Of a stretch of DNA of 59,962 nt, positions 22,698 through 39,984 are shown one piece after another; position 1 is the first letter of the stretch; each line of letters starts with the position of its first letter. A program made the position numbers and the translations under genes. Source of the stretch: Pelagibacterales bacterium SAG-MED48 (GTDB lineage: Bacteria; Pseudomonadota; Alphaproteobacteria; Pelagibacterales; Pelagibacteraceae). The notes beneath the pieces are model-generated. The model worked only from the letters and a program-made list of their open reading frames with translations. It did no database searches and had not been told where the DNA came from. Location: the NCBI GenBank assembly GCA_014653375.1, contig JACWEP010000006.1, positions 1 to 59,962 on the forward strand, given 5' to 3'.

Positions 22698-22700
22698 AAT

Positions 22701-23597: not shown

Positions 23598-23600
23598 TTT

Positions 23601-24557: not shown

Positions 24558-24608
24558 AATTAAGATTATTAACCTAATTTAAAATTAATTATTTATAAAT
24601 GGAAGTAC

Positions 24609-24637
24609 TTATACAGGCCACATTGTGGCCTGTATAA
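24609..24637 (-). terminator. Hairpin between the peptide-binding protein and its permeases
   Basis: TTATACAGGCCAC at 24609-24621 and GTGGCCTGTATAA at 24625-24637 form a perfect 13-base stem with a 3-base loop. It starts 14 bases after the stop of the minus-strand binding-protein gene. The flank read on the minus strand (AAGTACTTCC) has no T-run, so it may act as an mRNA 3'-end stabiliser or partial stop rather than a full intrinsic terminator. Confidence 0.8.
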
Positions 24638-24650
24638 TATAAGTTTTATA

Positions 24651-26138
24651 CTAATCTACTTTGACTTTGTGCCATTGAATTGAAAAAACTTCAACTTCAT
24701 CAAGATTTTTAACTCTTGAGTTAGTAACAACAAGTTTTGATACATGGTAAGGAATCATTGTTCCAGATTGTTCCCATAAAGTATGTTGTGCTTTTACATA
24801 GAGAGCTTTTCTTTTTTTAAAATCAAGCTCACCTCTCGCATCAGCAAGATTTTTATCAAAGTCTGAACTCTTATAGTATGACTCGTTCCATTTAGCGCTA
24901 CTATGATAAACTTCATGGAGTACACTATCTGCAGATCTTTCATTCCAACGTGTCATCGCTACATCTTTTTTCATCCAAGTTTCTTTCCAGTAACTTTTTG
25001 ATGGAGTCATTTTGATATCAACTTTAATACCAGCTTTAGCAACTTGTTGCTGAATTACTTCAGCAATTGTCGGCCAAGTAGGTTCTTTTGTTGAAACATG
25101 AATAACCATTTCTATTCCATTTGGATATCCAGCTTCTTTAAGAAGTTTTTTAGCTTCAGCAATGTTTTGTTTGCAGCCCATGTTATGACGATATTGATCC
25201 GTTGGAGCAACAGGTGTATCACATGATACTACTGCTTCACCGCCCATTACAGTATCAACAAGCTCTTGTCTGTCGACTGCTAAACGAACAGCTTTTCTAA
25301 CTTTTGGATTATCAAACGGAGCACGCTCTGTATTCATAACCATTCCTCTCCAGTTACCAGTTGGTATTACCGAAGTTTTAAATTTAGAATTACCATCAAA
25401 GATTTTTTTCTGACTAAATTGCACATATCTATTCATATCAATTTGACCAGTTAAAAGAGCTTGAACTCTAGCTTCACCATCGGGAATTGCTATTACATGA
25501 ACTTCCGCAAGACCAGGTGCACCTTCCCAATAATTTGGGTTAGCTTTTAGAATTGTTGTTCCTTCTGCATCAAACTTTTTAACTATAAAAGGACCAGTTC
25601 CAATTCCAGTCTTCCCAATAGTGTCCCCTGAACCTGAAGGAATCATTCTTAATCTGTAATCTGTTAAGTTTAGTGGAAAATCAGCAAAAGAAGTGTTTAA
25701 TTTCATTTTAACAGTATGAGAGTCAACAATCTCAATATCTGTTACAACACTTAAGCTTTTTTTTGCAGGCGATCCAATTTCAGGATCTTTTACACGCATT
25801 AAAGAATATTTTACATCTTCTGCATCAAAATCAGATCCATCATGAAACTTAACACCTTTTCTAAGTTTAAAAGTCCATTCAGTAGCATCTGCGTTTGCAG
25901 ACCAATCTGTAGCTAATTCTGCTGATGTTATTCCTTTAAGGTCTTTTCTAACTAATCGGTTTTGTGTCATTATGACTACCTGAAACAATCTACCTTTAGT
26001 TATTGCATCTAAGTTTGTATCTTTTCCAAAACCAAGATCATGTGAAAGTTTAAACGTTCCACTTGATGCATTGGCAAATGAAAAAGACACCATTAATGAT
26101 ACCAAACAAATTGATATCGTTTTAAAAATGTTTTTCAT
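24651..26138 (-). CDS. Family 5 extracellular solute-binding protein (dipeptide/oligopeptide type)
   Basis: A 495-residue periplasmic binding protein with a cleavable signal ending at SFANA (residue 24). Family 5 features include WTFKLRKGVKFHDGSDFDAEDVKYSL and GTGPFIVKKFD. Family members bind peptides but also opines, glutathione, nickel chelates and sugars, so the ligand is open. A Shine-Dalgarno AGAGGA lies a few bases before the ATG. It is the first gene of a four-gene operon with the two permeases and the fused ATPase. Confidence 0.93.
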   Translation of the reverse strand: MKNIFKTISICLVSLMVSFSFANASSGTFKLSHDLGFGKDTNLDAITKGRLFQVVIMTQNRLVRKDLKGITSAELATDWSANADATEWTFKLRKGVKFHDGSDFDAEDVKYSLMRVKDPEIGSPAKKSLSVVTDIEIVDSHTVKMKLNTSFADFPLNLTDYRLRMIPSGSGDTIGKTGIGTGPFIVKKFDAEGTTILKANPNYWEGAPGLAEVHVIAIPDGEARVQALLTGQIDMNRYVQFSQKKIFDGNSKFKTSVIPTGNWRGMVMNTERAPFDNPKVRKAVRLAVDRQELVDTVMGGEAVVSCDTPVAPTDQYRHNMGCKQNIAEAKKLLKEAGYPNGIEMVIHVSTKEPTWPTIAEVIQQQVAKAGIKVDIKMTPSKSYWKETWMKKDVAMTRWNERSADSVLHEVYHSSAKWNESYYKSSDFDKNLADARGELDFKKRKALYVKAQHTLWEQSGTMIPYHVSKLVVTNSRVKNLDEVEVFSIQWHKVKVD

Positions 26139-26294: not shown

Positions 26295-27518
26295 ATGCAT
26301 AAATCTTTACAAAACATAAGGTTTTCTATCAAACCTCAGAAGGAAGAAGGTAATAGACCAGTAGAACTGGCTCGAACTATGAGCATTCATCCTTTAACTT
26401 ATCAAGAGCTACCTTATGACCCGGAGTATTCTCATTATGCTGGAAGATTAACGACTGAAAAATTATCAAATGCTTCTCCAGATGAACAATATTGGAAAAC
26501 TAAACAAGAAATTATTCTTCGACACACAGGAGAGCATCCTTATGAAATTTCAGGTCCAGATGCGCTTAAATTATTACAGAAAATTTTTCCAAGAGACATT
26601 TCAAAAGTTAAAAAAGGAAGATGCTCTTATCAATTTGCTTGTTACCATGATGGTGGAATAATCACTGATGGTTTACTTTTAAGAATTGAGGATAATTGTT
26701 ATTGGTTTGCGCAAGCAGATGGTGACATGGTATCGTGGTATAAAGCTAATTCAGAAGGACTTGATGTTAAAATTAAAGAGCCAAATGTTTATGTAAGCCA
26801 AATTCAAGGACCTAAATCAATGGACCTTCTTAATAATTTAATTGATGAGCCAATAGCAAATACATGGAAATATTTTGATTGGGTTGAAGTAACCATGGCA
26901 GGAGAAAAAGTTATAATTAGTCGAACTGGGTTTACTAACGAACTAGGTTGGGAAATATATTTTCGTCCTGAAAATAATTCAGAAAAATTAGGTGATCTAA
27001 TTCTTGAAGAAGGAAAAAAAATGGGAATGATCATTACAGGCACACCATCATTTAGAGGTAGAAGAATTGAAGCTGGACTTTTATCTGCAGGTCAAGATTT
27101 TACAAATGATACAAACCCTTTTTCTGTTGGTCTTGGTCGTTTTGTTGATTTAAAAAAGGATGATTTCATAGGCAAAAAAGCTTTATTAAATGCAAATAAA
27201 GAATGTCGAAGTTGGGGCATTAGAGTTATTGATGGAATTGCAAAAAAAGGAAGGTCTATAAAAATCAATGATCAATCTATTGGAAAAGTGACTTCAAGCA
27301 CATGGTCTCCTTACCAAGTTTGTGGAGTTGGTATAGTACTATTAGATAAATCAGATGTAGGACCTGGAACAGTAGTTGATGTTGAGTGTGTTGATGAAAA
27401 AATCCATAAAGCTGAACTTTGTAAATTACCAATGTATGATCCGGATGGTGAAATAGTAAGAGGAATAAATAGGAAAATACCTACAAAAGCAGAGCCTTGG
27501 TTAGGAATAAAAAGTTAA
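26295..27518 (+). CDS. GcvT-family aminomethyltransferase-like protein
   Basis: A 407-residue protein of the folate-binding GcvT/YgfZ superfamily. The tetrahydrofolate-site Asp is present in GGIITDGLLLR, and the T-protein-type patterns VSQIQGPKSMDLLNNL and ISRTGFTNELGWEIYF are clear. No gcvP or gcvH lies nearby, so it is unlikely to be the ordinary glycine-cleavage T protein. Relatives include DMSP demethylase, sarcosine/dimethylglycine oxidase C-terminal domains and uncharacterised demethylases. A role in moving a methyl group from a methylated amine or sulfonium to tetrahydrofolate is inferred. It is convergent with, and overlaps by four bases, the SBP-3-like gene. Confidence 0.82.
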   Translation: MHKSLQNIRFSIKPQKEEGNRPVELARTMSIHPLTYQELPYDPEYSHYAGRLTTEKLSNASPDEQYWKTKQEIILRHTGEHPYEISGPDALKLLQKIFPRDISKVKKGRCSYQFACYHDGGIITDGLLLRIEDNCYWFAQADGDMVSWYKANSEGLDVKIKEPNVYVSQIQGPKSMDLLNNLIDEPIANTWKYFDWVEVTMAGEKVIISRTGFTNELGWEIYFRPENNSEKLGDLILEEGKKMGMIITGTPSFRGRRIEAGLLSAGQDFTNDTNPFSVGLGRFVDLKKDDFIGKKALLNANKECRSWGIRVIDGIAKKGRSIKINDQSIGKVTSSTWSPYQVCGVGIVLLDKSDVGPGTVVDVECVDEKIHKAELCKLPMYDPDGEIVRGINRKIPTKAEPWLGIKS

Positions 27519-28243
27519 TAAATATTGGGAATACTTAATTTATTTTGAACGTTATGTTTTTTCAATAAACTTTCTACATAACCTTCTTTAATTAGTTTTG
27601 AAATAAATTTATTAAGAAAATCTAAAATTTCAGGGGCACCCTTTTTAATACCAATAGATTGTTTAATATATGTGAATGGACTATTTATCATTTGAAAATC
27701 ATTATTAGTTTTAATTTCTTCAATTAGTTTTGGTTTTAATCCAGCAAGAACATTAACTTTATCTTCTCTAAACAATTTATGAGATTCTTCAATTGTATTT
27801 ACTCTTATTAATTCTATATTCTTATAATTTTCAGTTAACCATAAATCATAAGCACTTCTTTCCAAAACTGCTATTTTAATACCTGGTAAATTTATATCGT
27901 CGTTAGTTTTAAAATTATCTTTTTTTCTAAACATAAAATTTGCATCAATATTTACATAAGGATCAGTAAAATCTATTGTCTTACTCCTCTCATTTTCACA
28001 AGCTATATTACCTATATCCCACATATCTTCATTTACAGCATCAGCTAACAACCCTGGTTTTTTAAACTTCACTAATTTACATTTTAGGTTTAATTCTCTT
28101 GCGAGCTTTTTTCCAATATCTGGTGATACACCATCAGGCAATCCATTTGAGTCTTTACCATTTATCAGTAAAAAATTACTCATATTAATGCCTACACGCA
28201 AAATACCAGTAGGTGCTAATTTTTTAGAAATTGTCTCAATCAT
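27515..28243 (-). CDS. Family 3 solute-binding-like protein without signal peptide
   Basis: A 242-residue protein with the family 3 (amino-acid) binding fold: LRVGINMSNFL, GVSPDIGKKLARELNLKC, DFTDPYVNIDANFMFRKK and VLERSAYDLWLTENY. The N-terminus MIETISKKLAPTG is hydrophilic and no hydrophobic leader exists in frame, so the product should stay in the cytoplasm. No permease is adjacent. It could be a cytoplasmic sensor, or an enzyme derived from this fold as cyclohexadienyl dehydratase is. Function unknown. Confidence 0.8.
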   Translation of the reverse strand: MIETISKKLAPTGILRVGINMSNFLLINGKDSNGLPDGVSPDIGKKLARELNLKCKLVKFKKPGLLADAVNEDMWDIGNIACENERSKTIDFTDPYVNIDANFMFRKKDNFKTNDDINLPGIKIAVLERSAYDLWLTENYKNIELIRVNTIEESHKLFREDKVNVLAGLKPKLIEEIKTNNDFQMINSPFTYIKQSIGIKKGAPEILDFLNKFISKLIKEGYVESLLKKHNVQNKLSIPNIY

Positions 28244-28298: not shown

Positions 28299-28988
28299 AT
28301 GAGCAAAATAGAAAAAAAAATAATTGCAATTGGTGGTGTTGGTGTTTCACCTGAGTCAGATAAAGAATTAGACAATTTTATTATAAATCATTCAAAAAAG
28401 ATGAAAAATAACATTGGTTTTTTGGGTACTGCTAGCAAAGATGATAAAGAAAAGATAAATAAATTTTATAAAAGATTTGATAATACTAGTTCAGAATTAT
28501 CTCATTTTAATCTTACGTCTGATATAGATGGTTTTCATGAATGGTTATTAAGCAAAGATATAGTTTATGTTGGAGGTGGTAATACTTTTTATATGCTGGA
28601 AATTTGGAAGAAAAATAGCTTAGAACAGGTTTTCAAAAAAGCTTATGAAAAAGGACTTATATTATCTGGTGTTAGTGCCGGTGCTGTATGTTGGTTTGAC
28701 TGGATATTGTCAGATTCTATGGGACGAGGTTTTGAGCCACTAAAAGGGATAAATTTAATAGAAGGAAGCTGTACACCTCACTCATCTAACACTGAAAGAA
28801 TTAATGAATTTGAATTTAATATAAAAAATAATAAATTACCTAATGGAGTTGCAATTGATGACGGTGTGGCAGTAGTTTTCATTGACGGAAAACCTAGTGA
28901 AGTTTATTCTTCAATAAATAATCATAACGCTTATTTTTTTGATAAAAATACAAAAATTAATCTAAAAGAATATATAAAAAATATATGA
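28299..28988 (+). CDS. Peptidase S51 (dipeptidase E-like) family protein
   Basis: A 229-residue protein of the S51 group. The nucleophile elbow is GVSAGAVCWFDW, and VYVGGGNTFYMLEIWK is the conserved neighbour strand. Peptidase E cleaves Asp-X dipeptides; other members are cyanophycinases. No signal peptide is present. It is the first gene of a seven-gene plus-strand operon and overlaps the next gene by four bases (ATGA). A role in trimming a modified peptide or amide before further catabolism is possible. Confidence 0.85.
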   Translation: MSKIEKKIIAIGGVGVSPESDKELDNFIINHSKKMKNNIGFLGTASKDDKEKINKFYKRFDNTSSELSHFNLTSDIDGFHEWLLSKDIVYVGGGNTFYMLEIWKKNSLEQVFKKAYEKGLILSGVSAGAVCWFDWILSDSMGRGFEPLKGINLIEGSCTPHSSNTERINEFEFNIKNNKLPNGVAIDDGVAVVFIDGKPSEVYSSINNHNAYFFDKNTKINLKEYIKNI

Positions 28989-30139
28989 ACAACATAACTG
29001 CAAGTAAAAAAATTCACAGTATTGAAGATGCAAGAAATTTAGCAAGAAAAAGAATGCCTAAATTGATGTTTGATTTTGTTGATGGTGCATCAGGTGATGA
29101 GAAGCTATGTGAAATCAATAACACAGCTTTAGATCAAATAAGACTTGAACCAAAAGTTTTAAGAAATGTTGAAAATAGAAAATTAAAAAAGAAATTTTTA
29201 GATATTGAGTTCGATCAACCATTTGGTTTTTCTCCTATGGGTATGTGCAATTTAACATGGACAGGAGCAGACAAAATGTTAGCCAAAGAAAGTGTTGTAA
29301 ATAATGTGCCTGCATGTGTATCAATGGCATCCTCAACATCTTTAGAAAAAATGTATGAGTTATCAGAGGGTCGGTCCTGGATTCAATTATACAACTTTCA
29401 AGAAAATTTTGTAATGGAGCTGTTACAAAGAGCTGAACAAACTGGTTATAAAGTAGCTATACTAACCGTAGATGTTCCAATTCAATTTAGGAGAGCTAAA
29501 GATAATAAAAATGGCTTTACTGTACCTTTTAAAATTGGTCCAAAACAAATGTTTGATTTTGCGAGCCACCCTCTTTGGTCATTAACAACTTTATTAGGCG
29601 GGATCCCAAAACCAATGAACTATGAAACCTCAAAAAATGGTAATAAATTTGTAAGAAGTGAAAGTAGAGGAGCAACAGATTGGGGAACTCTAAAAAGAGT
29701 ACGAGATGCATGGAAAGGAAAATTAATAATTAAAGGAGTTATGTCACCAGAGGATGCAATCAAAATTAAAGCTGAAGGAGTTGATGCAATTCAAGTATCA
29801 AATCATGGTGGACGACAATTAGATAGTGCTACTGCTGCAATCGAAGCGTTACCATTAATTAGAAATGCACTAGGTAAAGAATTTCCTCTACTATTTGACA
29901 GCGGTGTTAGAGGTGGAAGTGACATTATAAGGGCGTTAGCTTTAGGAGCGGATTATGTAATGCTTGGCAGACCACTAATGTATGGAATTGGCGCAGATGG
30001 AGAAAAAGGTTTAAGAAGAATTTTAGATATAATTAAGGATGAATTAAGTACTGCACTAGGTTTAGTTGGTTTAAATGATATTAATCATGTGACTTCTGAA
30101 ATTATTGCTAAAAAATTTATACAAAATATGAAATACTAA
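28985..30139 (+). CDS. FMN-dependent alpha-hydroxy acid dehydrogenase/oxidase
   Basis: A 384-residue enzyme of the L-lactate dehydrogenase/glycolate oxidase/mandelate dehydrogenase family. The active-site His-Gly-Gly-Arg is in QVSNHGGRQLD, with the FMN phosphate site in FDSGVRGGSDIIRALALGAD. It oxidises an L-2-hydroxy acid to a 2-oxo acid. The following ThDP enzyme could act on such a 2-oxo acid. Specificity cannot be set from sequence alone. Confidence 0.9.
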   Translation: MNNITASKKIHSIEDARNLARKRMPKLMFDFVDGASGDEKLCEINNTALDQIRLEPKVLRNVENRKLKKKFLDIEFDQPFGFSPMGMCNLTWTGADKMLAKESVVNNVPACVSMASSTSLEKMYELSEGRSWIQLYNFQENFVMELLQRAEQTGYKVAILTVDVPIQFRRAKDNKNGFTVPFKIGPKQMFDFASHPLWSLTTLLGGIPKPMNYETSKNGNKFVRSESRGATDWGTLKRVRDAWKGKLIIKGVMSPEDAIKIKAEGVDAIQVSNHGGRQLDSATAAIEALPLIRNALGKEFPLLFDSGVRGGSDIIRALALGADYVMLGRPLMYGIGADGEKGLRRILDIIKDELSTALGLVGLNDINHVTSEIIAKKFIQNMKY

Positions 30140-30143
30140 AATT

Positions 30144-31886
30144 ATGTCTGAAAAAAAAATTAGAGGTGGATCCTTAATCGCAAGAGCCTTAAAAGATAAA
30201 GGTATTCAACATGTTTTCACGTTATCTGGAGGATTTTGTAATCCAGCTTTAGAAGGTTTTATGGAATGTCAAATGGAGGTAATAAACTGCCCTCATGAAC
30301 AAGTGGCAGGACATATAGCTGATGGTCATACAAGAATTACTCGTAAACCAGCTGTTTGTCTTGTTGGTCCAGAAGGTTTTGCAAATGCAGTTCCTTCAAT
30401 GATGGAGGCTTGGGGTGAAAGATCACCAGTAATATTTATTACTGGTTCTAGTAGTTTAAAAAGACAAGGATCAGGGGGCTTTAAAGAAATAGACGATGTA
30501 GCAATTGCTGCTCCCTTAACGAAATACAGCGCAAGTATAACAGACGGTACTCGAATTAGAGAATTTGTAGATAAAGCATATAGGATAGCAACAAATGGTT
30601 ATCCTGGTGCAGTTCATTTAAGTTTACCAGTTGATATTATGTTTTCATCTTTTTCAGAAGATGTGGGACTTGAAGAAAGACCTTTTTCTCATGAAGCAAA
30701 ATCAGTTGATAAAGCATGGCCAGATCCAAAAAATATTTCTGAAATATTAGAGCTTGCTTGCAATGCAAAGAAACCTGTTTTGATTGGTGGACATGGTGTT
30801 TGGTGGTCTAGATCTGAAAAAAAATTAGAAGAAGTCGGAAACAATTTAAGTATTCCAATATTTAATATTCCTTATCATCAAAAATTACTTGGTGAAGAAG
30901 CTAATGCTTATATGGGTTTAGCTGATATCCATCAATACCCTCCATCTAAATTTGCATTACATGAGTCTGATTTAGTTTTAATGGTTGGTGCAAGATTAGA
31001 TAATCAAATGAATTTTGGTAATCCTCCCCTTTTTCCAAAATCAACTAAGCTTGTTTGTATTAATGGCTCTCATGAAGAAATTGAACTTAACAGAGCTGCA
31101 GACATAAATTTATTATGTGATCCTGGCGTATTTTTAGATACTTTAAAAAATCTTAAAACAAATAATAAATGGAATTTAGGTCATGAGTGGTTTGATCTTA
31201 ATAAATCTAAAAAACAAGAATGGGTTAATAAGACTTTAGAAGATTTAAGCAAAGAAACTAAAGAAGCAGAAACTAATGGTGGAAAAATGCATCCACTTCA
31301 ATTGGCTTTAGATGTTCAAGATGCAATTGGAGAAAAAGACTGGTTAGTTATTGATGGTGGCAACACACATTTCTGGTCAGAAATTGCAATAAATATTGCT
31401 GGATCAAAAGGAAAAAAAATTGGTGGAATTTTACATCCAGGAACATTTAGCATGTTAGGTGTTGGCGTACCATTTGCCCTATCTGCAAAAAATACTCACC
31501 CTGATTCAAATGTAATTCTAATAAGTGGTGATGGAGCTTTCCTTTCAGGTGGCTTATCGATAGAAGCTGCTTTTCAAGAAAATAAACCAATAGTAGTTGT
31601 CATTGATAATAACGGTGGCTTAGATTGTATTTCTCAACAACAAGAACGTTTATTTGATAGTGGAAAACACTTCGCAACTGATTTTAGAGATATACCTTTT
31701 CATAAAATTTTTGAGGGTTTTGGGGGTCATGGAGAGTTAGTTACAAAAAGAGAGCAGTTAGCTCCAGCACTAAAAAGAGCTTTAGAAAGTGGAAAAACCG
31801 CATGTATCAACGTAAAAGCCAAAGGTGTAATAAGCCCAATTGTAGCTGCAGTTAGTGATAAAAGAGATAAGGCTTCAATAGAATAA
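30144..31886 (+). CDS. ThDP-dependent acetolactate-synthase-like enzyme
   Basis: A 580-residue thiamine-diphosphate enzyme. The catalytic Glu lies in NCPHEQVAGHIADGH, and the cofactor motif runs from GDGAFLSGG to VIDNNGG (GDG...NN). Family members include acetolactate synthase, benzoylformate decarboxylase, oxalyl-CoA decarboxylase and 2-hydroxyacyl-CoA lyase. There is no regulatory small subunit gene (ilvH) nearby, and the surrounding genes are catabolic, so I doubt a role in branched-chain amino-acid synthesis. Four bases separate it from both neighbours. Confidence 0.88.
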   Translation: MSEKKIRGGSLIARALKDKGIQHVFTLSGGFCNPALEGFMECQMEVINCPHEQVAGHIADGHTRITRKPAVCLVGPEGFANAVPSMMEAWGERSPVIFITGSSSLKRQGSGGFKEIDDVAIAAPLTKYSASITDGTRIREFVDKAYRIATNGYPGAVHLSLPVDIMFSSFSEDVGLEERPFSHEAKSVDKAWPDPKNISEILELACNAKKPVLIGGHGVWWSRSEKKLEEVGNNLSIPIFNIPYHQKLLGEEANAYMGLADIHQYPPSKFALHESDLVLMVGARLDNQMNFGNPPLFPKSTKLVCINGSHEEIELNRAADINLLCDPGVFLDTLKNLKTNNKWNLGHEWFDLNKSKKQEWVNKTLEDLSKETKEAETNGGKMHPLQLALDVQDAIGEKDWLVIDGGNTHFWSEIAINIAGSKGKKIGGILHPGTFSMLGVGVPFALSAKNTHPDSNVILISGDGAFLSGGLSIEAAFQENKPIVVVIDNNGGLDCISQQQERLFDSGKHFATDFRDIPFHKIFEGFGGHGELVTKREQLAPALKRALESGKTACINVKAKGVISPIVAAVSDKRDKASIE

Positions 31887-31890
31887 AATC

Positions 31891-32226
31891 ATGGCAACTC
31901 TATCATCTCATTTACTAAATTCAGTCAATGGAACTCATGCGAGCGGTGTTAAAGTTATAATTAATCAAATCAATTCTTCTGGTGAAAAAGTAATTTTTTT
32001 TGAATCTGAAACAGATAATGGAGGAAGAATTTTAAAAGATTTTGATCTTTCAAAAAATGACTGTAATTGTGATTATGAAATGGTATGTAAAACTGCTGAT
32101 TATTTTTCTGAAAAAAAAATTGTCTCTGAAATAATAATTAAATTTAGAATGGAAGATCCTAAAAAAAAATATCACCTACCAATTATTATATCCCCAAATG
32201 GTTACTCAATTTGGTGGTCTCAATAG
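31891..32226 (+). CDS. 5-hydroxyisourate hydrolase/transthyretin-like protein with altered C-terminus
   Basis: A 111-residue transthyretin-fold protein. It keeps the three catalytic positions of 5-hydroxyisourate hydrolase: His7 in SSHLLNSVNG, Arg46 in NGGRILKD and His95 in KYHLPIIISP. The classical C-terminal YRGS is replaced by IWWSQ. No uricase, OHCU decarboxylase or other urate gene is in the window. It may therefore hydrolyse a different ring or lactam produced in this operon. It starts four bases after the ThDP gene. Confidence 0.82.
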   Translation: MATLSSHLLNSVNGTHASGVKVIINQINSSGEKVIFFESETDNGGRILKDFDLSKNDCNCDYEMVCKTADYFSEKKIVSEIIIKFRMEDPKKKYHLPIIISPNGYSIWWSQ

Positions 32227-32247
32227 TTATTAAATAATTAAATTTTT

Positions 32248-33393
32248 ATGTCTAAAAATATAAAACTGAATATGTCTAGGAGAATAAGAAGAACTCCATA
32301 TACAAACCGGGTTGAAGAACATGGTGTTTCAGATTTTACTGTAGTAAACCATATGCTTTTGCCTAAAGGATTTAAAAATTCTATTGAAGAGGATTATTGG
32401 CATTTAAGTGAAAAGGTTCAGGTTTGGGATGTTTCTTGTCAAAGACAAGTTCAAATTAGTGGGCCTGATGCAGCTACACTTGTTCAAAAATTAACACCTC
32501 GTTCAATACATAATATGGAAATAGGAAAATGTTTTTATATTCCTATGCTTAACGAAAATGCAGGAATGATAAATGATCCGGTTTTGCTTAAACTAGATGA
32601 TGATCTGTTTTGGATATCAATTGCAGACTCAGACATTTTACTTTGGACAAAAGGGTATGCTCTAGGTTTAAATTTAAATGTAAATATTGAAGAGCCTGAT
32701 GTTTATCCCTTGGCAATTCAAGGACCTAAATCAGAAGAACTATTGATATCAATATTTGGTGAAGAAATAAAAAAAATTAAATTTTTTAATTTCAGAGTGT
32801 TTGATTTTGAAGGAACAAAACAAATTATTGCAAGATCTGGTTATAGTAAACAAGATGGGTTTGAAATTTACTTTAAGACTCATGAAAAATATTTTGATAA
32901 CATCGAGATGGGTGAAAAACTTTGGGATACAATTTGGGAAGCTGGAAAAAAATTTAATATTTCTCCAGGATGTCCTAATCTAATTGATAGAATTGAAGGT
33001 GGACTTATGTCTTATGGCAATGATTTTACCAGAGAAAATAACCCTCTAGAATGTAATCTAGAAAAATATTGTAAAGAAGATGTTTCTCATGATTTTATTG
33101 GAAAACAAGCTTTAACAAAAATTCATAACGATGGTGTAAAACAAAAAATCAGAGGTATCACATTTGATGGAAATCCTTGTTTGGGAATAGGTCACCCTTT
33201 AAAAGTATTATCCAAAGATAATAAAATAATTGGGCAAATTACTTCTGGTATTTACTCTCCTAGAATTAAAAAAAATGTTGGTTTATCAATGATTTTAAAA
33301 GACTACTGGGAAATAGGAGAAAATGTATTTATTCAGAACCTTGACGGATCAAAAAGAAACGGATCGATAACCTCTTTGCCATTTCCAGATTAA
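32248..33393 (+). CDS. DMSP-demethylase (DmdA)-like folate-dependent methyltransferase
   Basis: A 381-residue protein. RRIRRTPYTNRVEEHGV, FTVVNHMLLPKGF and EEDYWHLSEKVQVWDV resemble the N-terminus of SAR11-type dimethylsulfoniopropionate demethylase DmdA, and ISIADSDILLWTKGYALGL and IQGPKSEELL continue that match. The folate-site Asp is in NAGMINDPVLLKL. DmdA moves a methyl group from DMSP to tetrahydrofolate. As dmdB/C/D are not adjacent and the operon partners differ, this could be a paralogue acting on another methylated substrate. The call is family-firm but substrate-open. Confidence 0.78.
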   Translation: MSKNIKLNMSRRIRRTPYTNRVEEHGVSDFTVVNHMLLPKGFKNSIEEDYWHLSEKVQVWDVSCQRQVQISGPDAATLVQKLTPRSIHNMEIGKCFYIPMLNENAGMINDPVLLKLDDDLFWISIADSDILLWTKGYALGLNLNVNIEEPDVYPLAIQGPKSEELLISIFGEEIKKIKFFNFRVFDFEGTKQIIARSGYSKQDGFEIYFKTHEKYFDNIEMGEKLWDTIWEAGKKFNISPGCPNLIDRIEGGLMSYGNDFTRENNPLECNLEKYCKEDVSHDFIGKQALTKIHNDGVKQKIRGITFDGNPCLGIGHPLKVLSKDNKIIGQITSGIYSPRIKKNVGLSMILKDYWEIGENVFIQNLDGSKRNGSITSLPFPD

Positions 33394-33412
33394 ATAGTTA
33401 TATATACGCCTT

Positions 33413-34537
33413 ATGTTTAAAGCAGTTATAGCAGGTTACTCAAGATCTCCTTTCACAATGGCAAGAAAAGGAGAATTAATAGATGTAAAGCCAGTTAATT
33501 TACTTGCTGAAGTAATAAACAACCTTGTTTCAAAAACTAAAATTAACAAAAGTGAAATAGAAGATATTGTAATTGGTTGTGCTTTTCAAACAGGAGAACA
33601 GTGTTTCAATATTGGTAAATTAGTAACTTTTTTAACTAATATGGATATTAAAACTTCAGGAATGACTGTTGATAGATGGTGTGGATCATCAATGGAGGGT
33701 ATTCATATAGCTGCAGGAAAGATAGCAATGGGATCTGGGAAAGTGTTTATATGTGGTGGTGTCGAAAGCATGACAAGAGTTAATACAGGTTTTGATGCTA
33801 TGCCATATCCTTATTCTGAAAAAAAAAATCCTAATGTATATTTTTCAATGGGTATCACTGCAGAAAATGTAGCCAAACAATATTCTATATCAAGAACAGA
33901 ACAACAGGAATTTGCAATATCAAGTCATCAAAAAGCATTTGAAGCTCAATCAAAAGGAAATTTTAATAATGAAATTGTAACTATTGGAACTTGTTCTCAA
34001 GATAGTAATATTAGACCAGGTAGTACTCAAGAAAAACTAGATGGATTAAAATTAGCATTTGATCAAAATGGAACAGTAACAGCTGCAACATCATCACCTC
34101 TGACAGATGGTGCTTCAGCTACATTAATTTGTGAGGAACAATTTGCTAAAGATAATAATTTAGAAATTTTAGCTAGGATTGTTTCAACCTCTGTTCAAGG
34201 ATGCAAAGCAGATACAATGGGCTTAGGACCAATTGGAGCATCACAGAAAGCATTAGAAAGAGCAAAATTAACAATTAAAGATATTGATATCGTAGAACTA
34301 AATGAAGCATTTGCATCTCAATCATTAGCTTGCATAAAAGATTTACAAATAGATCCTAAAAAAGTTAACATAGATGGTGGTGCGTTAGCGTTAGGTCATC
34401 CGCTTGGAGCAACAGGTGCAAGAATTACTGGAAAAGCAGCTCAATTATTAAAAAGAGAAAACAAAAAATATGCATTGGCTTCTCAGTGTATAGGTCTTGG
34501 AATGGGTATCGCCACAATAATTGAGTCTGTAGAATAA
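33413..34537 (+). CDS. Thiolase family acyl-CoA acetyltransferase
   Basis: A 374-residue thiolase. The nucleophilic Cys is in VDRWCGSSMEGIH (near residue 91), the His in GGALALGHPLGATGARIT and the second Cys in ASQCIGLGMG. It cleaves or forms 3-oxoacyl-CoA. In the operon it follows the DmdA-like gene by 19 bases. Its place suggests that the pathway ends in an acyl-CoA cleavage step. Confidence 0.92.
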   Translation: MFKAVIAGYSRSPFTMARKGELIDVKPVNLLAEVINNLVSKTKINKSEIEDIVIGCAFQTGEQCFNIGKLVTFLTNMDIKTSGMTVDRWCGSSMEGIHIAAGKIAMGSGKVFICGGVESMTRVNTGFDAMPYPYSEKKNPNVYFSMGITAENVAKQYSISRTEQQEFAISSHQKAFEAQSKGNFNNEIVTIGTCSQDSNIRPGSTQEKLDGLKLAFDQNGTVTAATSSPLTDGASATLICEEQFAKDNNLEILARIVSTSVQGCKADTMGLGPIGASQKALERAKLTIKDIDIVELNEAFASQSLACIKDLQIDPKKVNIDGGALALGHPLGATGARITGKAAQLLKRENKKYALASQCIGLGMGIATIIESVE

Positions 34538-34545
34538 ATCTCTAA

Positions 34546-35424
34546 ATGCAACAATTACCTTTTGATCAAAGATCTGGAAAAATTTGGTTCAATAATGAAT
34601 TATGTGAATGGCAAGATGCCAGAGTTCATATTATTAGCCATGGAATGCACTATGCAAGCTTAGTTTTTGAAGGTTTAAGAGTTTATAATAAAAAGATTTT
34701 TAAGTTAAAAGAGCATACCGATAGACTTTTCAATTCTGCCAAAATTCTTGATATGAAAATTCCTTATTCTTTTGATGAGATTATTGAGGCTACAAAAAAA
34801 CTTGTTTCTGATCAGAGTATTGAAAACGGATATATAAGACCTTTTGTTTGGAGGGGTAGTGAAATGATGGGAGTTTCTGCGCAAAATACCAAAATTAATG
34901 TAGCAATAGCTATATGGGATTGGCCAACATATTTTAATCCTGAACTAAAATTAAAAGGTATAAAATTAAATATATCTAAATGGCAAAGGCCTCCACAAAA
35001 CTCTTCACCTTGGGAAAGTAAAGCAGCTGGTTTATATATGATTTGCACACTTTCGAAACACCAAGCTGAAAAAGATGGTTACACAGATTCTTTAATGCTA
35101 GACCACGAAGGCAACATAGCTGAAGCTACAAGTGCTAACATTTTTTTTAAAGACAAAAATAATGAATTACATACACCAATACCCGACTCATTTTTAGACG
35201 GTATCACTAGAAAAACTGTTATTGATTTAGCAAAATCGAAAAATATTAGAATAAATGAAAGAAAAATATCTCCCGATGAGCTTTCTAATTTTAAAGGTTG
35301 TTTTATAACTGGTACTGCAGCAGAAATTACACCTGTTGGAAATATTCTAGATAATAAATTTGAAGTCTGTGATTTAATTAAAGATCTATCTTCAAGTTAT
35401 GAAAAATTAGTTGGAAAAAATTAA
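34546..35424 (+). CDS. Class IV PLP aminotransferase, IlvE-like
   Basis: A 292-residue branched-chain aminotransferase/D-amino-acid transaminase family enzyme. FNNELCEWQDARVHIISHGMHY is typical of the N-terminus, SKAAGLYMICTLSKHQAEKD carries the PLP Lys, and GNIAEATSANIFF follows. It could be the IlvE used in leucine/isoleucine/valine synthesis, or an operon-specific transaminase. It is the last gene of the plus-strand operon and is convergent with the permease gene. Confidence 0.87.
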   Translation: MQQLPFDQRSGKIWFNNELCEWQDARVHIISHGMHYASLVFEGLRVYNKKIFKLKEHTDRLFNSAKILDMKIPYSFDEIIEATKKLVSDQSIENGYIRPFVWRGSEMMGVSAQNTKINVAIAIWDWPTYFNPELKLKGIKLNISKWQRPPQNSSPWESKAAGLYMICTLSKHQAEKDGYTDSLMLDHEGNIAEATSANIFFKDKNNELHTPIPDSFLDGITRKTVIDLAKSKNIRINERKISPDELSNFKGCFITGTAAEITPVGNILDNKFEVCDLIKDLSSSYEKLVGKN

Positions 35425-35426
35425 AA

Positions 35427-36281
35427 CTATCTATTAATTCCTCTTAGTCTTTCAGATCTTCTTCTAAGAAGCTCTGCTGTAACTAGAATTAAAGTAGACA
35501 TTACAATCAAACATGTTGCAACAGCCATTATCGTTGGGCTTAATTGCTCTCTTAATCCTACCCACATTTGAATTGGAATAGTGGTATTTTCTAATCCAGC
35601 TAAGAACAACACAACTACAACCTCATCAAATGAAGTTACAAAAGCAAATAACGCACCAGAAATTACACCTGGCATAATTAAAGGTAGTGTTATTTTCATA
35701 AATGTATTTACAGGATTACTTCCTAGGCTTGCTGCAGCACGTGTTACACTATGATCAAAACCTGACAAAGTTGCTGTCACTGTAATTACTACAAATGGAG
35801 TTCCTAAAATTATATGCGATAAAATAATTCCTGTGTGAGTAGCTGCTAGACCAACTTTTGCCATAAAGAAAAATATTGCAGTGCCTGAAATAATTAATGG
35901 TACGATCATTGGTGAAATTAACAATGCCATGAATGCTGCCTTATAAGGCATATGTCTACTGCTTAAACCCAAAGCAGCTACTGTTCCAAGAATTGTCGAT
36001 CCAATTGTTGCAAAGAAAGCTATAAATAAACTATTCTTAGTGGCTAAACCCCATGGATTTTTAGTTCCATAAATCATGTCTTCATACCACCTTAAAGAAA
36101 AACCTTCAGGATCTAGCGCTAACATTTTAGCTGAAAAGTGAATGTATTGTTCAGCATTAAATGAAAGTGGTAAAATTACAAATAAAGGTGCGATTAAAAA
36201 AAAGAACACAAATCCACAAAAAGTTAAATATACGTAGTGCCATATTCTATAATTTAAAGGTGTGTGATTTGGTAATGCCAT
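35427..36281 (-). CDS. Polyamine-type ABC transporter permease, PotC-like
   Basis: A 284-residue permease with about six membrane segments. The coupling loop has AAASLGSNPVNTFMKITLP, as in PotC. It is the last gene of a six-gene minus operon and lies three bases after the PotB-like gene. Calling it polyamine-specific is unsafe; the operon context points to an ectoine-like ligand. Confidence 0.9.
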   Translation of the reverse strand: MALPNHTPLNYRIWHYVYLTFCGFVFFFLIAPLFVILPLSFNAEQYIHFSAKMLALDPEGFSLRWYEDMIYGTKNPWGLATKNSLFIAFFATIGSTILGTVAALGLSSRHMPYKAAFMALLISPMIVPLIISGTAIFFFMAKVGLAATHTGIILSHIILGTPFVVITVTATLSGFDHSVTRAAASLGSNPVNTFMKITLPLIMPGVISGALFAFVTSFDEVVVVLFLAGLENTTIPIQMWVGLREQLSPTIMAVATCLIVMSTLILVTAELLRRRSERLRGINR

Positions 36282-36284
36282 AAA

Positions 36285-37532
36285 TTATCCTAATTTAATA
36301 TTATCTATTCCAACAAGTTTGTTATAAATCCAATAAATCGCTAAAACTCCAACTAATAGCATTGTGCCTAGAGCTGATGCAAAAGCCCAGTCTAACGAAC
36401 TTTTCATATGATAAGCAATAGTGTTACTTATTAAAGAACCACTTGCACCTCCAACTAATGCAGGAGTTATGTAGTAACCAATAGCTAAAATAAATACCAA
36501 TAAACATCCAGCACCAATACCCGGAATAGTTAAAGGGAAATAAATTTTTACAAATGATACAAGTGGTGTTCCACCTAATGATTTTCCAGCTCTCATTAAA
36601 CTTGGAGATATAGTTTTCATAACACTGTACAAAGGTAAAACCATAAAAGGTAATAATATTTGCGTCATCGCTACAAATGTTCCAATAACATTGTACATTA
36701 ACTCTGGTCTATTATCGTCAGCTGCCAAACCGATCCAAACAATCAAATCATTTATTGGACCTTGTTGTTGAAGCAAAACCATCCAACTTGAAGTTCTAAC
36801 CAACAATGATGTCCAAAAAGGAAGCAACACACAGATCATTAGTAAATTACTATATTTCATTGGTAAAGTGGCCAATAAATGTGAAATTGGATAAGCAAGA
36901 ATAAAACAAAAAATTGTAACCCAAAAAGCTACATTCAATGTTCTCATCCATAAAATTTTATAAATTCTTCTATCTTCTTCAACGCTAACTATATTTCTAT
37001 CTTGGTCAAATGTCATATCCACACCCTTAAGATATTTTGCATATGACCATTCAGGGGCTGCATTTTTCAACGCAACTAAGTATTCAGGCTGACCCCATCT
37101 TTTGTGAACTTTAATAAACTGTTCTTTATAATTTCCCTCTTCAAATTTATTAATTTTTCTAACTGTTTTTTTTATCAAACTACTAAATCCTGATTTTTCA
37201 TAATTCAGTCTTGCTATAATTTTTCCATAAGTCTTGTTTTGTTTCAAATAAGTTAAGTCTTCATAAAGACCTTTGTAAACTGGCTCATCTGGCAAATCTT
37301 GCCCATCCCATTTCTCCATTGCATTAAATGTTTTAGGAAGCATTTTTGTAATCATACGATCATCAACACTCCTAAATAGCATGTCTCCTATTGGAAAAAC
37401 GTAAATAATTAAGATGAATAAAAATAAAGGAGCAACAAGCAAAACTGCTTTTAGTTTATTTTTTCTTTCCGCTTTTTTTAGACTTTGCTCTAGAGGTATT
37501 CCGTCTGATGATAAAATTTGTTCTTTGCTCAT
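36285..37532 (-). CDS. Polyamine-type ABC transporter permease, PotB-like, with large periplasmic insert
   Basis: A 415-residue permease, longer than the roughly 285 residues of E. coli PotB. TM1 is at about residues 28-48; after it a hydrophilic stretch of about 140 residues runs to TM2 near 192. That insert is rich in charged residues and lies on the periplasmic side by the usual topology. The EAA loop is AGKSLGGTPLVSFVKIYFP. It is separated from the binding-protein gene by an intrinsic terminator. Confidence 0.9.
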   Translation of the reverse strand: MSKEQILSSDGIPLEQSLKKAERKNKLKAVLLVAPLFLFILIIYVFPIGDMLFRSVDDRMITKMLPKTFNAMEKWDGQDLPDEPVYKGLYEDLTYLKQNKTYGKIIARLNYEKSGFSSLIKKTVRKINKFEEGNYKEQFIKVHKRWGQPEYLVALKNAAPEWSYAKYLKGVDMTFDQDRNIVSVEEDRRIYKILWMRTLNVAFWVTIFCFILAYPISHLLATLPMKYSNLLMICVLLPFWTSLLVRTSSWMVLLQQQGPINDLIVWIGLAADDNRPELMYNVIGTFVAMTQILLPFMVLPLYSVMKTISPSLMRAGKSLGGTPLVSFVKIYFPLTIPGIGAGCLLVFILAIGYYITPALVGGASGSLISNTIAYHMKSSLDWAFASALGTMLLVGVLAIYWIYNKLVGIDNIKLG

Positions 37533-37537
37533 AATTT

Positions 37538-37571
37538 AAAAAAAAAGGGCGGTTATTTTCGTAACCGCCCT
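37538..37571 (-). terminator. Intrinsic terminator/attenuator after the PotD-like gene
   Basis: AGGGCGGTTA at 37546-37555 pairs with TAACCGCCCT at 37562-37571 around a 6-base loop. Read on the minus strand the G/C-rich stem is followed by a run of nine T (37546-37538). It lies 36 bases after the binding-protein stop, before the PotB-like start, so it should lower permease expression relative to the binding protein. Confidence 0.92.
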
Positions 37572-37606
37572 AATATTATAATAAAATTTTAATCTATAAA
37601 ACTAAA

Positions 37607-38734
37607 TTATAGACCAGCTTTCATTGCTTCCCATTTCTCATTTATCTCGTCCTGGTTATCTGCCCAGAAGTCAGGGTTCATAAGAATGTGGCTTTTTAAG
37701 TTGCTAGGTGCTGTTGGCATATGTGGTACCATGTTAGTTTTACCATCTTTAAACCAAGGCTCTCCAGCTTCCATAATAGCAATTGAAGATTTTCTCCAAG
37801 GTGCGTAAGCAATATACTTAGCGCTTCCAGCTAAACCTTCAGTACTAGTCATTTCAGCAAGTACTTTCATAGCACTACCATCAGCATAACCTGGACCATC
37901 TTTAACTAATGCAAAATACTCATAATCAAGAATTTGAGCATCCCATACTTGTACAAGTGGAGTTCCTTCCATCTGTGCGTTAAAGAATCTACCGTTCCAA
38001 CCCGTAGCCATTACTACTTCACCGTTAGCTAGTAGTTCTGGTGGTTGAGCACCAGCATTCCAGAATACACATCCACCATTTGGATCCGTACAAAGTGCTT
38101 TGATTTTTGCTAAAGCTCTATCGATACCAGCACCTTCCATTTTTCTGTAAAGTAAATCTCCACCAGCTTGAGCTCCGCTAGCTTTTACTCCATCAGCAAC
38201 TAGTGCAATTTCTAAGTTAGACATTGCGCCTTTATAGATTGCTCTTTTACCTGGAAACTTTTTAGTATTGAAAAAGTCTTTAATAGTTTTTGGTTTTTTG
38301 TCTCCAATTTTATCATCATTATAAGCGAAGTTCCAAGAGTACAGAATGTTTCCAACTGCACATTTCGAAGGCATGCTTGTAAAGAAGTCTTGACTTGCTG
38401 GTGTTCCATCTGGAGCAGGTAAGAAGTCTTTATCAAAATCGAATTCATGGAAAATACCTTCGTCACATCCAATGATTGTATCTTTTGCGTATACATCAAT
38501 GATGTCCCAAGTTATTGCTCCAGCTTCTTTTTGAGCTTTAATTTCTGATAATCCACCAGTGTAGTCTACCCAATTAACAGGTATTCCTAATTTTGCTGCT
38601 GTAGGATCACCATACCCTAATTTTTGTGATTCTGTGTAAGCTCCACCCCAAGACACTACAGTAACTGCAAATGCTGAAGTTGTTACAGAAAGTACAAAAG
38701 AAAGAGCAAGTAATAATTTACTTAATTTTTTCAT
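37607..38734 (-). CDS. Family 1/PotD-type extracellular solute-binding protein
   Basis: A 375-residue periplasmic protein with a signal peptide ending at TSAFA (about residue 23). VVSWGGAYTESQKLGYGDP and WDIIDVYAKDTIIGCDEG match PotD/PotF-type proteins. Three or more cysteines occur in the mature part (GCDEG, SKCAVG, ALCTDPNGGCVFW), which may form disulfides. An AGGAG ribosome site sits nine bases before the ATG. The gene has its own candidate promoter and a terminator after it. Confidence 0.92.
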   Translation of the reverse strand: MKKLSKLLLALSFVLSVTTSAFAVTVVSWGGAYTESQKLGYGDPTAAKLGIPVNWVDYTGGLSEIKAQKEAGAITWDIIDVYAKDTIIGCDEGIFHEFDFDKDFLPAPDGTPASQDFFTSMPSKCAVGNILYSWNFAYNDDKIGDKKPKTIKDFFNTKKFPGKRAIYKGAMSNLEIALVADGVKASGAQAGGDLLYRKMEGAGIDRALAKIKALCTDPNGGCVFWNAGAQPPELLANGEVVMATGWNGRFFNAQMEGTPLVQVWDAQILDYEYFALVKDGPGYADGSAMKVLAEMTSTEGLAGSAKYIAYAPWRKSSIAIMEAGEPWFKDGKTNMVPHMPTAPSNLKSHILMNPDFWADNQDEINEKWEAMKAGL

Positions 38735-38748
38735 TTATTCTCCTATTT

Positions 38749-38760
38749 AACGTTAACGTT
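38749..38760. promoter_or_regulatory. Perfect 12-base palindrome AACGTTAACGTT in the potD-like leader
   Basis: AACGTTAACGTT is its own reverse complement. It lies about 12-23 bases downstream of the transcription start expected from the neighbouring promoter, and just before the AGGAG ribosome site. Position and a symmetrical CG-containing core suggest a repressor operator. Confidence 0.55.
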
Positions 38761-38778
38761 TAGTTTTTATAAAGATAA

Positions 38779-38807
38779 ATTAAAACAATATAGATTAGTA
38801 TAGTCAA
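38779..38807 (-). promoter_or_regulatory. Candidate sigma70 promoter for the PotD-like gene
   Basis: On the minus strand TTGACT (38807-38802) and TTTAAT (38784-38779) are separated by exactly 17 bases. It lies in the 116-base gap between the ATPase stop and the binding-protein start, giving a leader of about 38 bases. In A/T-rich DNA a weak -10 can be fortuitous. Confidence 0.6.
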
Positions 38808-38850
38808 CAGTTGATTAAAGCTAATTTGGCTTTGTTTTTAAAGAAAAAAA

Positions 38851-39945
38851 TTAGATACTTAATTTTAGGTCTAAAGCTCTACAGTCAACGCTGTTCCAGC
38901 CAATATTGATTTCTTTTCCTGCTTTTATATCCATACCACTTGAGCTATTTGGAACTTTAAGAATAAATTGTTTATTACCCAATAGGTCTACTCTTAATCT
39001 TGTATGATCACCATGATAAATAACTTCTTCAATTTTACCTTTGTGATTATTGTCCATTGTGGTTTGTGGATCAATTAATGCTCTTTCAGGTCTTAACGAT
39101 ACTGTTGTTTTCTCCCCTTTTGCTTTTGCAACAATCGGGTTTGCAAAAATTTCTGCACCTGAATTTAATTTTACCTTACATTTATCACCTGCAACATCTA
39201 TTACTTCTCCACCAAAAGTATTATTCTCCCCGATAAACTCTGCAACAAACGAGTTAACAGGTCTTTCATATAATTCATCTGGACTAGAAAGTTGTTGAAC
39301 TTTACCATCATTGAATACTGCAATTCGATTAGACATTGTTAAAGCTTCAGTTTGATCATGAGTAACATATACAACTGTTACACCAATACTTTCATGGATA
39401 TGTTTAATTTCATATTGCATGCTTTCTCTTAAATTTTTATCTAACGCACCTAAAGGTTCGTCCATCAATACAAGTTTTGGATCAAACACTAGTGATCTTG
39501 CAACTGCTACTCTTTGTTGTTGACCACCTGATAATTGCATTGGCATTCTTGCTTCAAAGCCTTGAAGTGAAACCATTGATAATGCTTTATCAACTTTTTT
39601 ATCGGCCTCGTCTTTTGGAATTTTTCTAACTCTTAAAGGAAATGCTAAATTTTCATATACCGTCATATGAGGAAACAGAGCGTAATTTTGAAATACCATT
39701 CCAATACCTCTTTTGTGAGGTGGAATATCTGAAATAACATTGTTATCTAAATAAATTTGGCCGTTAGTTGGTGTTTCAAACCCTGCTAACATCATCAAAC
39801 AAGTTGTTTTACCAGAACCAGATGGTCCAAGCATTGTAACAAACTCACCTTCTTCAATATCTAAGTTTAAACCTTTAACGACAAGTAGTTTGCCATCATA
39901 ACTTTTATCTACATTTTCAAATCTTACGAAGTGATCGTTCGCCAT
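38851..39945 (-). CDS. Polyamine-type ABC transporter ATP-binding protein, PotA-like
   Basis: A 364-residue ATPase. Walker A is GPSGSGKTT (near residue 39), the signature is LSGGQQQRVAV and Walker B is VLMDEPLGALD. The C-terminal TOBE region (VSLRPERALI) is typical of PotA. It follows the M24 hydrolase gene by 39 bases and so belongs to the EutA/DoeA/Pot operon. Confidence 0.93.
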   Translation of the reverse strand: MANDHFVRFENVDKSYDGKLLVVKGLNLDIEEGEFVTMLGPSGSGKTTCLMMLAGFETPTNGQIYLDNNVISDIPPHKRGIGMVFQNYALFPHMTVYENLAFPLRVRKIPKDEADKKVDKALSMVSLQGFEARMPMQLSGGQQQRVAVARSLVFDPKLVLMDEPLGALDKNLRESMQYEIKHIHESIGVTVVYVTHDQTEALTMSNRIAVFNDGKVQQLSSPDELYERPVNSFVAEFIGENNTFGGEVIDVAGDKCKVKLNSGAEIFANPIVAKAKGEKTTVSLRPERALIDPQTTMDNNHKGKIEEVIYHGDHTRLRVDLLGNKQFILKVPNSSSGMDIKAGKEINIGWNSVDCRALDLKLSI

Positions 39946-39984
39946 GCGTGTTTAAAACATTTGTTAGATTGATAATCAAGCAAT

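Follow-up and report, generated by a model that had tools for sequence, protein, structure and literature searches.

The subject of this report is a compact set of genes in a stretch of 59,962 nucleotides from Pelagibacterales bacterium SAG-MED48 (contig JACWEP010000006.1 of GenBank assembly GCA_014653375.1), the whole of which is called the window below. The host genome amounts to 1.07 Mb at 75.6% completeness, and the closest named relatives of the window are Pelagibacteraceae (with matches of 92-100% per gene in locus L038 of SAG-MED49), which places it in SAR11. Seven open reading frames (ORFs) of the same strand occupy positions 28299-35424, and four of them form a core that recurs in other alphaproteobacterial families:

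28299-28988, + strand: S51-family serine peptidase/amidase-like protein of 229 aa (Pfam PF03575, 117.5 bits)
28985-30139, + strand: flavin mononucleotide (FMN)-dependent enzyme of the 2-hydroxyacid dehydrogenase/oxidase family, core (PF01070, FMN_dh, 376.8 bits)
30144-31886, + strand: thiamine diphosphate (ThDP)-dependent enzyme, acetolactate synthase / 2-hydroxyacyl-CoA lyase superfamily, the best conserved protein of the core (PF02776/00205/02775, TPP_enzyme_N/M/C)
31891-32226, + strand: protein with the fold of transthyretin and 5-hydroxyisourate hydrolase (HIUase), of a distinct subfamily, core (PF00576, 68.5 bits)
32248-33393, + strand: DmdA-clade tetrahydrofolate (THF)-dependent methyltransferase, a predicted demethylase, core (GCV_T, 144.9 bits, and GCV_T_C; NF009133, 520.8 bits)
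33413-34537, + strand: thiolase of the acetyl-CoA C-acyltransferase family, a SAR11 addition (Thiolase_N/C; TIGR01930, 409.7 bits, above cut-off)
34546-35424, + strand: class IV (branched-chain type) aminotransferase, a facultative extra paralogue (Aminotran_4; PRK07544, 464 bits)

The seven families had been named in an earlier reading made without database searches (the sequence-only reading), and ORF calls together with Pfam and NCBIfam matches bear these names out. The gaps of 4-21 bases described there are found at five of the six junctions (4, 4, 21, 19, and 8 bases, in gene order), the first junction, between the S51 and FMN genes, being a 4-base overlap. The GC profile gives no island signal.

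The six genes that run from S51 through FMN, ThDP, HIU-like, and DmdA-like to the thiolase constitute a conserved SAR11 unit, in which both order and spacing are kept. A scan with the DmdA-like protein led to 73 SAR11 loci, 72 of which were retained once L104, carrying a canonical-type DmdA, had been dropped; genes in the fetched loci were called by a custom script, with approximate start sites. Among the testable cases in these 72 loci, the neighbour pairs are preserved in 61/62 (S51-FMN), 67/68 (FMN-ThDP), 69/69 (ThDP-HIU), 70/71 (HIU-DmdA), and 69/70 (DmdA-thiolase), and all four missed pairs correspond to partial or split matches. An orthologue of the ThDP enzyme (at least 80% identity, two of them partial) occurs in 21 of 81 whole genomes of the window's genus, the remaining matches among these genomes being just 25-29% identical. 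The aminotransferase behaves as a facultative duplicate outside the core: it stands between the thiolase and potC in 21 of 65 SAR11 loci and adjoins the module in three of the 81 genus genomes (G000, which is that of the window, G169, and G213), each of which has a second, 66-68% identical copy elsewhere (68% in the window genome, G000:C1). For the other 18 module-bearing genomes of the genus, a copy (68-73%) was located on a different contig in 14, and none was found in four.

Outside SAR11, the search was based on the ThDP enzyme, with the best few candidates of each genome scored in the class, phylum, and f23 samples. Close orthologues were found in 6 of 385 genomes of a class sample (two more matches were just 31% identical) and in 2 of 398 genomes of a phylum sample, the window's own genome being included in both counts, as well as in 22 of 61 genomes of family f109, which we take to be the SAR116 family, 12 of 295 of f23, probably Rhodobacteraceae, and 4 of 14 of f81. 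The set of 32 non-SAR11 loci comprises G385 (family f141), 15 of the 22 from f109, and all 12 and all four from f23 and f81, respectively; L125 (G350) and G453, with their 31% ThDP relatives, stand outside it. A gene was counted as a neighbour at identity floors of 24-45% and at a distance from the ThDP gene of at most 1.5 kb for the FMN and HIU-like genes, 2.5 kb for the DmdA-like gene, and 5-9 kb for others, and the counts are lower bounds, as L123, L135, and L197 run into contig ends. Under these definitions the HIU-like gene accompanies the ThDP gene in 32 loci, the DmdA-like gene in 28, and the FMN gene in 26, and we therefore define a four-enzyme core, FMN-ThDP-HIU-DmdA, present in four other alphaproteobacterial families. 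LysR-type genes (15 loci), MttB-like genes (12), S51 (10), LDH2-family genes (four, two of these loci being near-identical), and gcvT2 (one) are less frequent companions; S51, the thiolase, gcvT2, MttB, and LysR are lineage parts. The protein distances of the four core members correlate over 26 loci (Mantel r 0.85-0.91, a value reached by 0 of 2000 permutations), part of which species descent alone can cause. No viral copy of the module was confirmed, and plasmid records gave no match of at least 60%, the rows among the matches listed being 27-29% identical.

These data bear directly on the simplest explanation of the locus, namely that unrelated housekeeping genes happen to lie side by side, as could be expected where a genome is small, streamlined, and densely packed. 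However, gene order is kept across families with different flanks, and the distribution is patchy even within the window's genus (the 21 of 81 genomes mentioned above). Conserved co-occurrence therefore refutes a chance neighbourhood, the probability of which we regard as negligible. Scattered, independently conserved genes had been named in the sequence-only reading as the outcome that would speak against a functional unit, and the opposite is seen in the 72 SAR11 and 32 other loci. Its seven-gene unit thus stands as a conserved unit but not in its composition, since the core consists of four enzymes, with S51 and the thiolase as lineage additions and the aminotransferase as an extra paralogue.

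Upstream of the module, the window contains the following genes:

20673-26138, - strand: Opp/Dpp-type ATP-binding cassette (ABC) importer, whole cluster, the likely uptake system
20673-22697, - strand: importer ATPase
22701-23597 and 23601-24557, - strand: importer permeases
24651-26138, - strand: importer binding protein (SBP_bac_5, 295.6 bits)
26295-27518, + strand: second GcvT-like protein, gcvT2 (PF01571, 146.5 bits)
27515-28243, - strand: family-3 binding-protein-like protein, facultative and with no evident signal sequence (PF00497, 63.4 bits)

Where the sequence extends more than 4.5 kb ahead of S51, as it does in 55 SAR11 loci, an Opp-type binding protein is encoded upstream in all 55, gcvT2 in 48, and the family-3 protein in 10. 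Since an Opp-type binding protein also lies within 9 kb in 16 of the 32 other loci, the suggestion that an oligopeptide transporter imports the substrate fits well; gcvT2, which was not among the seven genes first described, goes with the module in SAR11. Outside SAR11, a gcvT2 homologue (64.5%) directly precedes the FMN gene in L120, and a homologue of the family-3 protein (52%) is found near the module of the SAR116 locus L136.

The DmdA-like protein passes the NCBIfam model of dimethylsulfoniopropionate (DMSP) demethylase, NF009133, with 520.8 bits against a cut-off of 410, as do its counterparts in L121 (genome G436; 633.9) and L127 (566.1), and it is 46.7% identical to the Pelagibacter ubique DmdA of structure 3tfh (46-49% for SAR11 module rows). 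An ordinary DMSP demethylase that acquired new neighbours in a variant demethylation pathway is consequently the first alternative to be considered. Genome G436 lends it some weight, as the module gene is there the sole one of the 7 candidates scored (out of 14) to exceed the NF009133 cut-off. The cultured SAR116 strain IMCC1322 (G436) seems to carry the module, and one paper reports a DMSP demethylase in this strain, 'Candidatus Puniceispirillum marinum' IMCC1322, and in HIMB100 (PMC3368413), while another reports dmdA solely in a different SAR116 subgroup (PMC8547437). Moreover, L193 and L199 have an acyl-CoA dehydrogenase gene next to the module, and L120 and L199 an enoyl-CoA hydratase gene in its vicinity; DmdC and DmdD are enzymes of these two types, which would also suit a DMSP-type route.

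Several observations nevertheless set the module enzyme apart. In a tree of 57 hand-chosen rows, all 20 module-linked DmdA proteins form one clade (support 100/100) with no other row inside; it lies within the wider DmdA group, apart from both the SAR11 clade with 3tfh and the roseobacter-type clade. Among 41 loci with other DmdA-family matches, HIU or ThDP module genes occur in the short flanks of just L154 and L161, which are the module genes of G436 and G385 (omitted from the tree, where they figure as L121 and L120), and the 39 non-module loci have no HIU, ThDP, or FMN module gene in these flanks. Module and canonical-type enzymes belong to one family: 12 canonical-type DmdA rows share 101 invariant columns, of which 67 are identical throughout the 20 module rows and 84 are kept by at least 90% of these rows. 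Six columns are, however, fixed differently in the module enzyme, Y32V and E63Q (20/20), Y29F (19/20), G103A, V229I, and I297F, which hints at a methyl donor that is akin to DMSP but distinct from it. Another DmdA match of at least 423 bits is encoded elsewhere in 18 of the 21 module-bearing genomes of the genus (all but G162, G208, and G213), so that the DMSP reaction cannot be assigned to the SAR11 module protein as a matter of course. Furthermore, no acyl-CoA ligase is found among the module genes of the window, and FMN, ThDP, and HIU-like proteins are not known to take part in the established DMSP route. On balance, we regard a variant DMSP pathway as unlikely. The window genome also shows 11 GCV_T-domain matches, 10 of them above cut-off, many for a streamlined genome of 1.07 Mb. 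For three SAR11 isolates, four aminomethyltransferases have been described (GcvT, DmdA, SAR11_1265, and SAR11_1303), and the passages of that source which we consulted make no mention of such a module (PMC3160333).

The most constant feature of the module is the association of the ThDP enzyme with the HIU-like protein, whose genes adjoin each other in every locus examined (69/69 SAR11 pairs and 32/32 others). Four loci (L124, L203, L204, and L205) have the pair but neither an FMN nor a DmdA gene nearby, and the corresponding genomes (G588, G1246, G1305, and G1306) gave no DmdA-family match at E 1e-80, which suggests that the pair performs a self-contained step. We infer that this step would act on a carboxylic acid and that the DmdA-like and FMN enzymes would prepare its substrate. 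In L203 (3883-11470), the pair is located behind genes for TctA and TctC, components of a carboxylate-type transporter, and close to a LysR-like gene and a gene whose product has a partial match to alpha-acetolactate decarboxylase.

The ThDP enzyme is unusually conserved, with 64-85% identity in the four other families, and the catalytic Glu in PHEQ as well as the ThDP/Mg motif GDG...NNG are invariant in 17 rows. Its closest solved relatives are 2-hydroxyacyl-CoA lyase/synthase, and it has the three ThDP domains and the catalytic Glu in common with 2-hydroxyacyl-CoA lyase, oxalyl-CoA decarboxylase, and acetolactate synthase. It nonetheless fails to reach the cut-off of any of the 25 models listed (51 matched in total), including the equivalogs of 2-hydroxyacyl-CoA lyase (247 vs. 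600) and oxalyl-CoA decarboxylase (212.9 vs. 557). In the structure match its identity to ApbHACS is 26%, and the HACS stretch ANTMDIGR, which we take to be the CoA site, reads GNTHFWSE in the module enzyme. The structure model (pLDDT 76, Foldseek TM about 0.5) adds little beyond the sequence search.

For the HIU-like partner, a transthyretin-like fold is confirmed by Pfam, by an AlphaFold model (pLDDT 94.9), and by Foldseek, the best solved match being 2g2n, a crystal structure with Zn of the transthyretin-related protein from E. coli. Ten residues are invariant over 23 aligned rows (H7, L9, G14, H16, G45, R46, H95, P97, W108, and S110); of these, H7, R46, and H95 align with the His/Arg/His positions of HIUase that are presumably catalytic, and, given three invariant histidines, a metal site is possible. 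Differently from 5-hydroxyisourate hydrolase (TIGR02962), with which it shares the fold and the three residues, the module protein ends in W-x-S instead of YRGS (23/23 rows), has a new invariant H16, and is partnered by a ThDP enzyme; its TIGR02962 score of 67.7 does not reach the cut-off of 87.45. We read it as an HIUase-derived subfamily whose substrate has probably changed. Separate homologues, about 30% identical to the module protein, were observed in L019-L037 (SAR11 genera g3 and g6, with L034 from the window's genus), and the YRGS tail is kept in all seven of the non-module SAR11 homologues displayed.

The properties of this pair are also those on which a purine- or hydantoin-type ureide pathway has to be judged, in which the HIU-like protein would open an N-heterocycle and the ThDP enzyme would resemble glyoxylate carboligase. 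Such a route could draw on the HIUase fold with its conserved H/R/H, on the presence of glyoxylate carboligase among the distant relatives of the ThDP enzyme, and on amidase-like neighbours (S51, and an asparaginase in L124), as well as on LDH2-family neighbours that resemble ureidoglycolate dehydrogenase (131.4 bits, below the cut-off of 356). But the YRGS tail is lost and the HIUase cut-off missed, other SAR11 genomes encode separate HIUases of the YRGS type, and no uricase, allantoin, or hydantoin gene was seen among the annotated neighbours, which are part of the genes around the loci. In addition, glyoxylate carboligase lacks the catalytic Glu, and the module ThDP enzyme retains it. We consider ureide breakdown improbable.

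Of the remaining members, the FMN enzyme shares its family and the catalytic residues with L-lactate dehydrogenase, mandelate dehydrogenase, and glycolate oxidase, the active-site Lys, His, Arg, and Tyr being retained, but it falls below the cut-off of the curated models for lactate dehydrogenase, lactate oxidase, and MftD, and at the position that we assign to Tyr24 by spinach numbering 24 of 28 aligned rows have Phe (two of the 24 being the window protein) and four have Tyr. The S51 protein, whose SAGA motif is conserved in 13 aligned rows, scores far below the cut-offs for PepE (27 vs. 156) and cyanophycinase (26.5 vs. 126.6). In the representative set, thiolases of at least 60% identity are found just in SAR11 rows (four rows with the query), and the aminotransferase passes the branched-chain aminotransferase equivalog PRK07544 (464 vs. 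396).

Neighbours outside the core, annotated for part of the genes around the loci, are in many cases predicted enzymes of 2-oxo-acid, 2-hydroxy-acid, or methyl-group metabolism. The LDH2-family genes counted above are of the redox kind, and the MttB-like genes of the methyl-transfer kind. Orthologues of ApbA adjoin MttB in L193, L195, and L199; L120 includes a homocysteine S-methyltransferase gene, and L200 has genes for carnitine dehydrogenase, BKACE, FolD, and FTHFS. The non-SAR11 MttB-like partners have PF06253 and, with 329.4 bits, remain below the trimethylamine MttB cut-off of 525. Rfam PYLIS_3 (mttB) matches at L121:6383-6493 and L138:14839-14934 lie inside MttB-like genes with no in-frame stop and probably reflect mttB sequence similarity only. 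A homologue of the homocysteine S-methyltransferase (52% to that of L120) is encoded at L097:5149-6045, upstream of a SAR11 module without gcvT2, and a weak match to the methanethiol-oxidase family (155.9 bits vs. a cut-off of 650) is located at L206:9000-10352, about 3 kb from the module.

Taken together with the gene content, order, and co-occurrence, the active-site residues, and the clade structure described above, these predicted activities are compatible with the catabolism of a methylated carboxylic acid, and we give about an even chance to a module that would transfer methyl to THF and combine uptake, FMN, and ThDP-HIU steps. Each of the reactions, their order, and the substrate class are what we infer. 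The substrate would most likely be a 2-hydroxy or 2-oxo acid with an onium group, either a sulfonium or a betaine, and might reach the cell in conjugated form, as an amide or something similar to a peptide. It would be taken up by the Opp-type ABC importer, and the role of the S51 protein, in SAR11 and SAR116, may be to hydrolyse an amide bond. The DmdA-clade enzyme would then pass a methyl group to THF, extra methyls being possibly removed by gcvT2 or the MttB-like protein, and the FMN enzyme would oxidise the 2-hydroxy acid to the 2-oxo acid. The ThDP and HIU-like proteins could act in one coupled step, in which the 2-oxo acid is cleaved or decarboxylated and the product hydrolysed; SAR11 would add thiolysis by the thiolase and, in some strains, a transaminase. 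Demethylation to THF and 2-hydroxy/2-oxo-acid chemistry had both been proposed in the sequence-only reading and fit the module enzymes, but the results do not single out its cyclic methylated amino-acid derivative. That the set matches no known pathway agrees with our literature searches: the open-access literature, to which the search was confined (subscription papers and preprints lying outside it), yielded no description of the module. Likewise, we know of no pathway that corresponds to the gene set and the HIUase-derived subfamily.

Several points weigh against this proposal. Within the distance limits, the FMN gene is absent from six and the DmdA-like gene from four of the 32 non-SAR11 loci (L135 being cut by a contig end), and, given the prevalence of Phe at the Tyr24 position, the FMN enzyme may act on something other than a simple 2-hydroxy acid. 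No MttB-like protein was found across the 72 SAR11 loci. Some neighbours point elsewhere: L131 has 5-oxoprolinase genes and an ectoine synthase gene, L202 has HutF, and L193 a hydroxyproline dehydratase, and the carnitine genes of L200 are among divergent, lineage-specific neighbours. Since the surroundings of the core vary strongly from lineage to lineage and give divergent hints, they do not by themselves identify the substrate, and an Rfam scan of six loci other than the window gave no riboswitch or other ligand clue.

A special case of the proposed methylated-acid catabolism would have 4-dimethylsulfonio-2-hydroxybutyrate (DMSHB), or a conjugate of it, as the substrate. The DmdA-like enzyme would form methylthio-hydroxybutyrate, which the FMN enzyme would oxidise to methylthio-oxobutyrate, to be converted to methionine by the aminotransferase or degraded by ThDP-HIU. 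DMSHB is the sole marine solute we could name that is both a sulfonium compound and a 2-hydroxy acid, and the homocysteine S-methyltransferase genes of L120 and L097 would be in keeping with it. DMSHB is reported to accumulate to levels far exceeding those of DMSP in one cyanobacterium (PMC11306096), and SAR11 to require reduced sulfur (PMC7487153). Yet the MttB-like partners suggest nitrogen, the ThDP-HIU pair exists without DmdA, and DMSHB leaves the HIU-like protein, S51, and the peptide-type importer unexplained, for which reason we hold this particular substrate to be a long shot.

Other compounds were considered and set aside. The homarine route keeps the N-methyl group until N-methylglutamate, and among the papers listed by the literature search none on homarine degradation appeared to deal with such an operon. 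Mycosporine-like amino acids were suggested just by an analogy to ThDP dione hydrolases, and pantothenate breakdown by the ApbA-family neighbours in three loci and nothing more. A histidine/imidazole-lactate route would have to build on HutF in one locus and on ureohydrolases (two loci and the window) that are just 33-46% alike. Ectoine was discarded as module substrate despite an ectoine-like cluster next door, as it has no methyl group of the type that these enzymes remove. This cluster, at 35427-41897 on the - strand and convergent with the module, is an ectoine-like uptake and breakdown cluster with polyamine-type ABC genes (potC-potB-potD-potA), a DoeA-like M24 hydrolase (450.6 bits vs. 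a cut-off of 613), and a EutA-like protein (202 vs. 318); among the 72 SAR11 loci, 65 have potC as the next gene after the thiolase (or the aminotransferase).

SAR11 and SAR116 bacteria consume a large share of the small dissolved organic matter in the ocean, and many of their conserved genes still await a compound to which they can be assigned; the module links four enzymes and an importer to one such missing substrate. All of its parts come from known families, and the novelty resides in their combination and in the HIUase-derived subfamily, with a sizeable chance that a new enzyme step is involved. It is possible, although we would put the chance somewhat below even, that SAR11, SAR116, and roseobacter-like bacteria use here a new pathway for a widespread methylated compound, with a novel two-protein step performed by the ThDP enzyme and its obligate partner, an HIUase-derived hydrolase, and fed by a second, non-DMSP branch of the DmdA family. 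A protein that passes the standard DMSP-demethylase model need not sit in the characterised DmdA clades, and, if the proposal is true, part of the dmdA counts in surveys would reflect this compound and not DMSP. Both the search for the substrate and the correction of dmdA counts are now directly testable.

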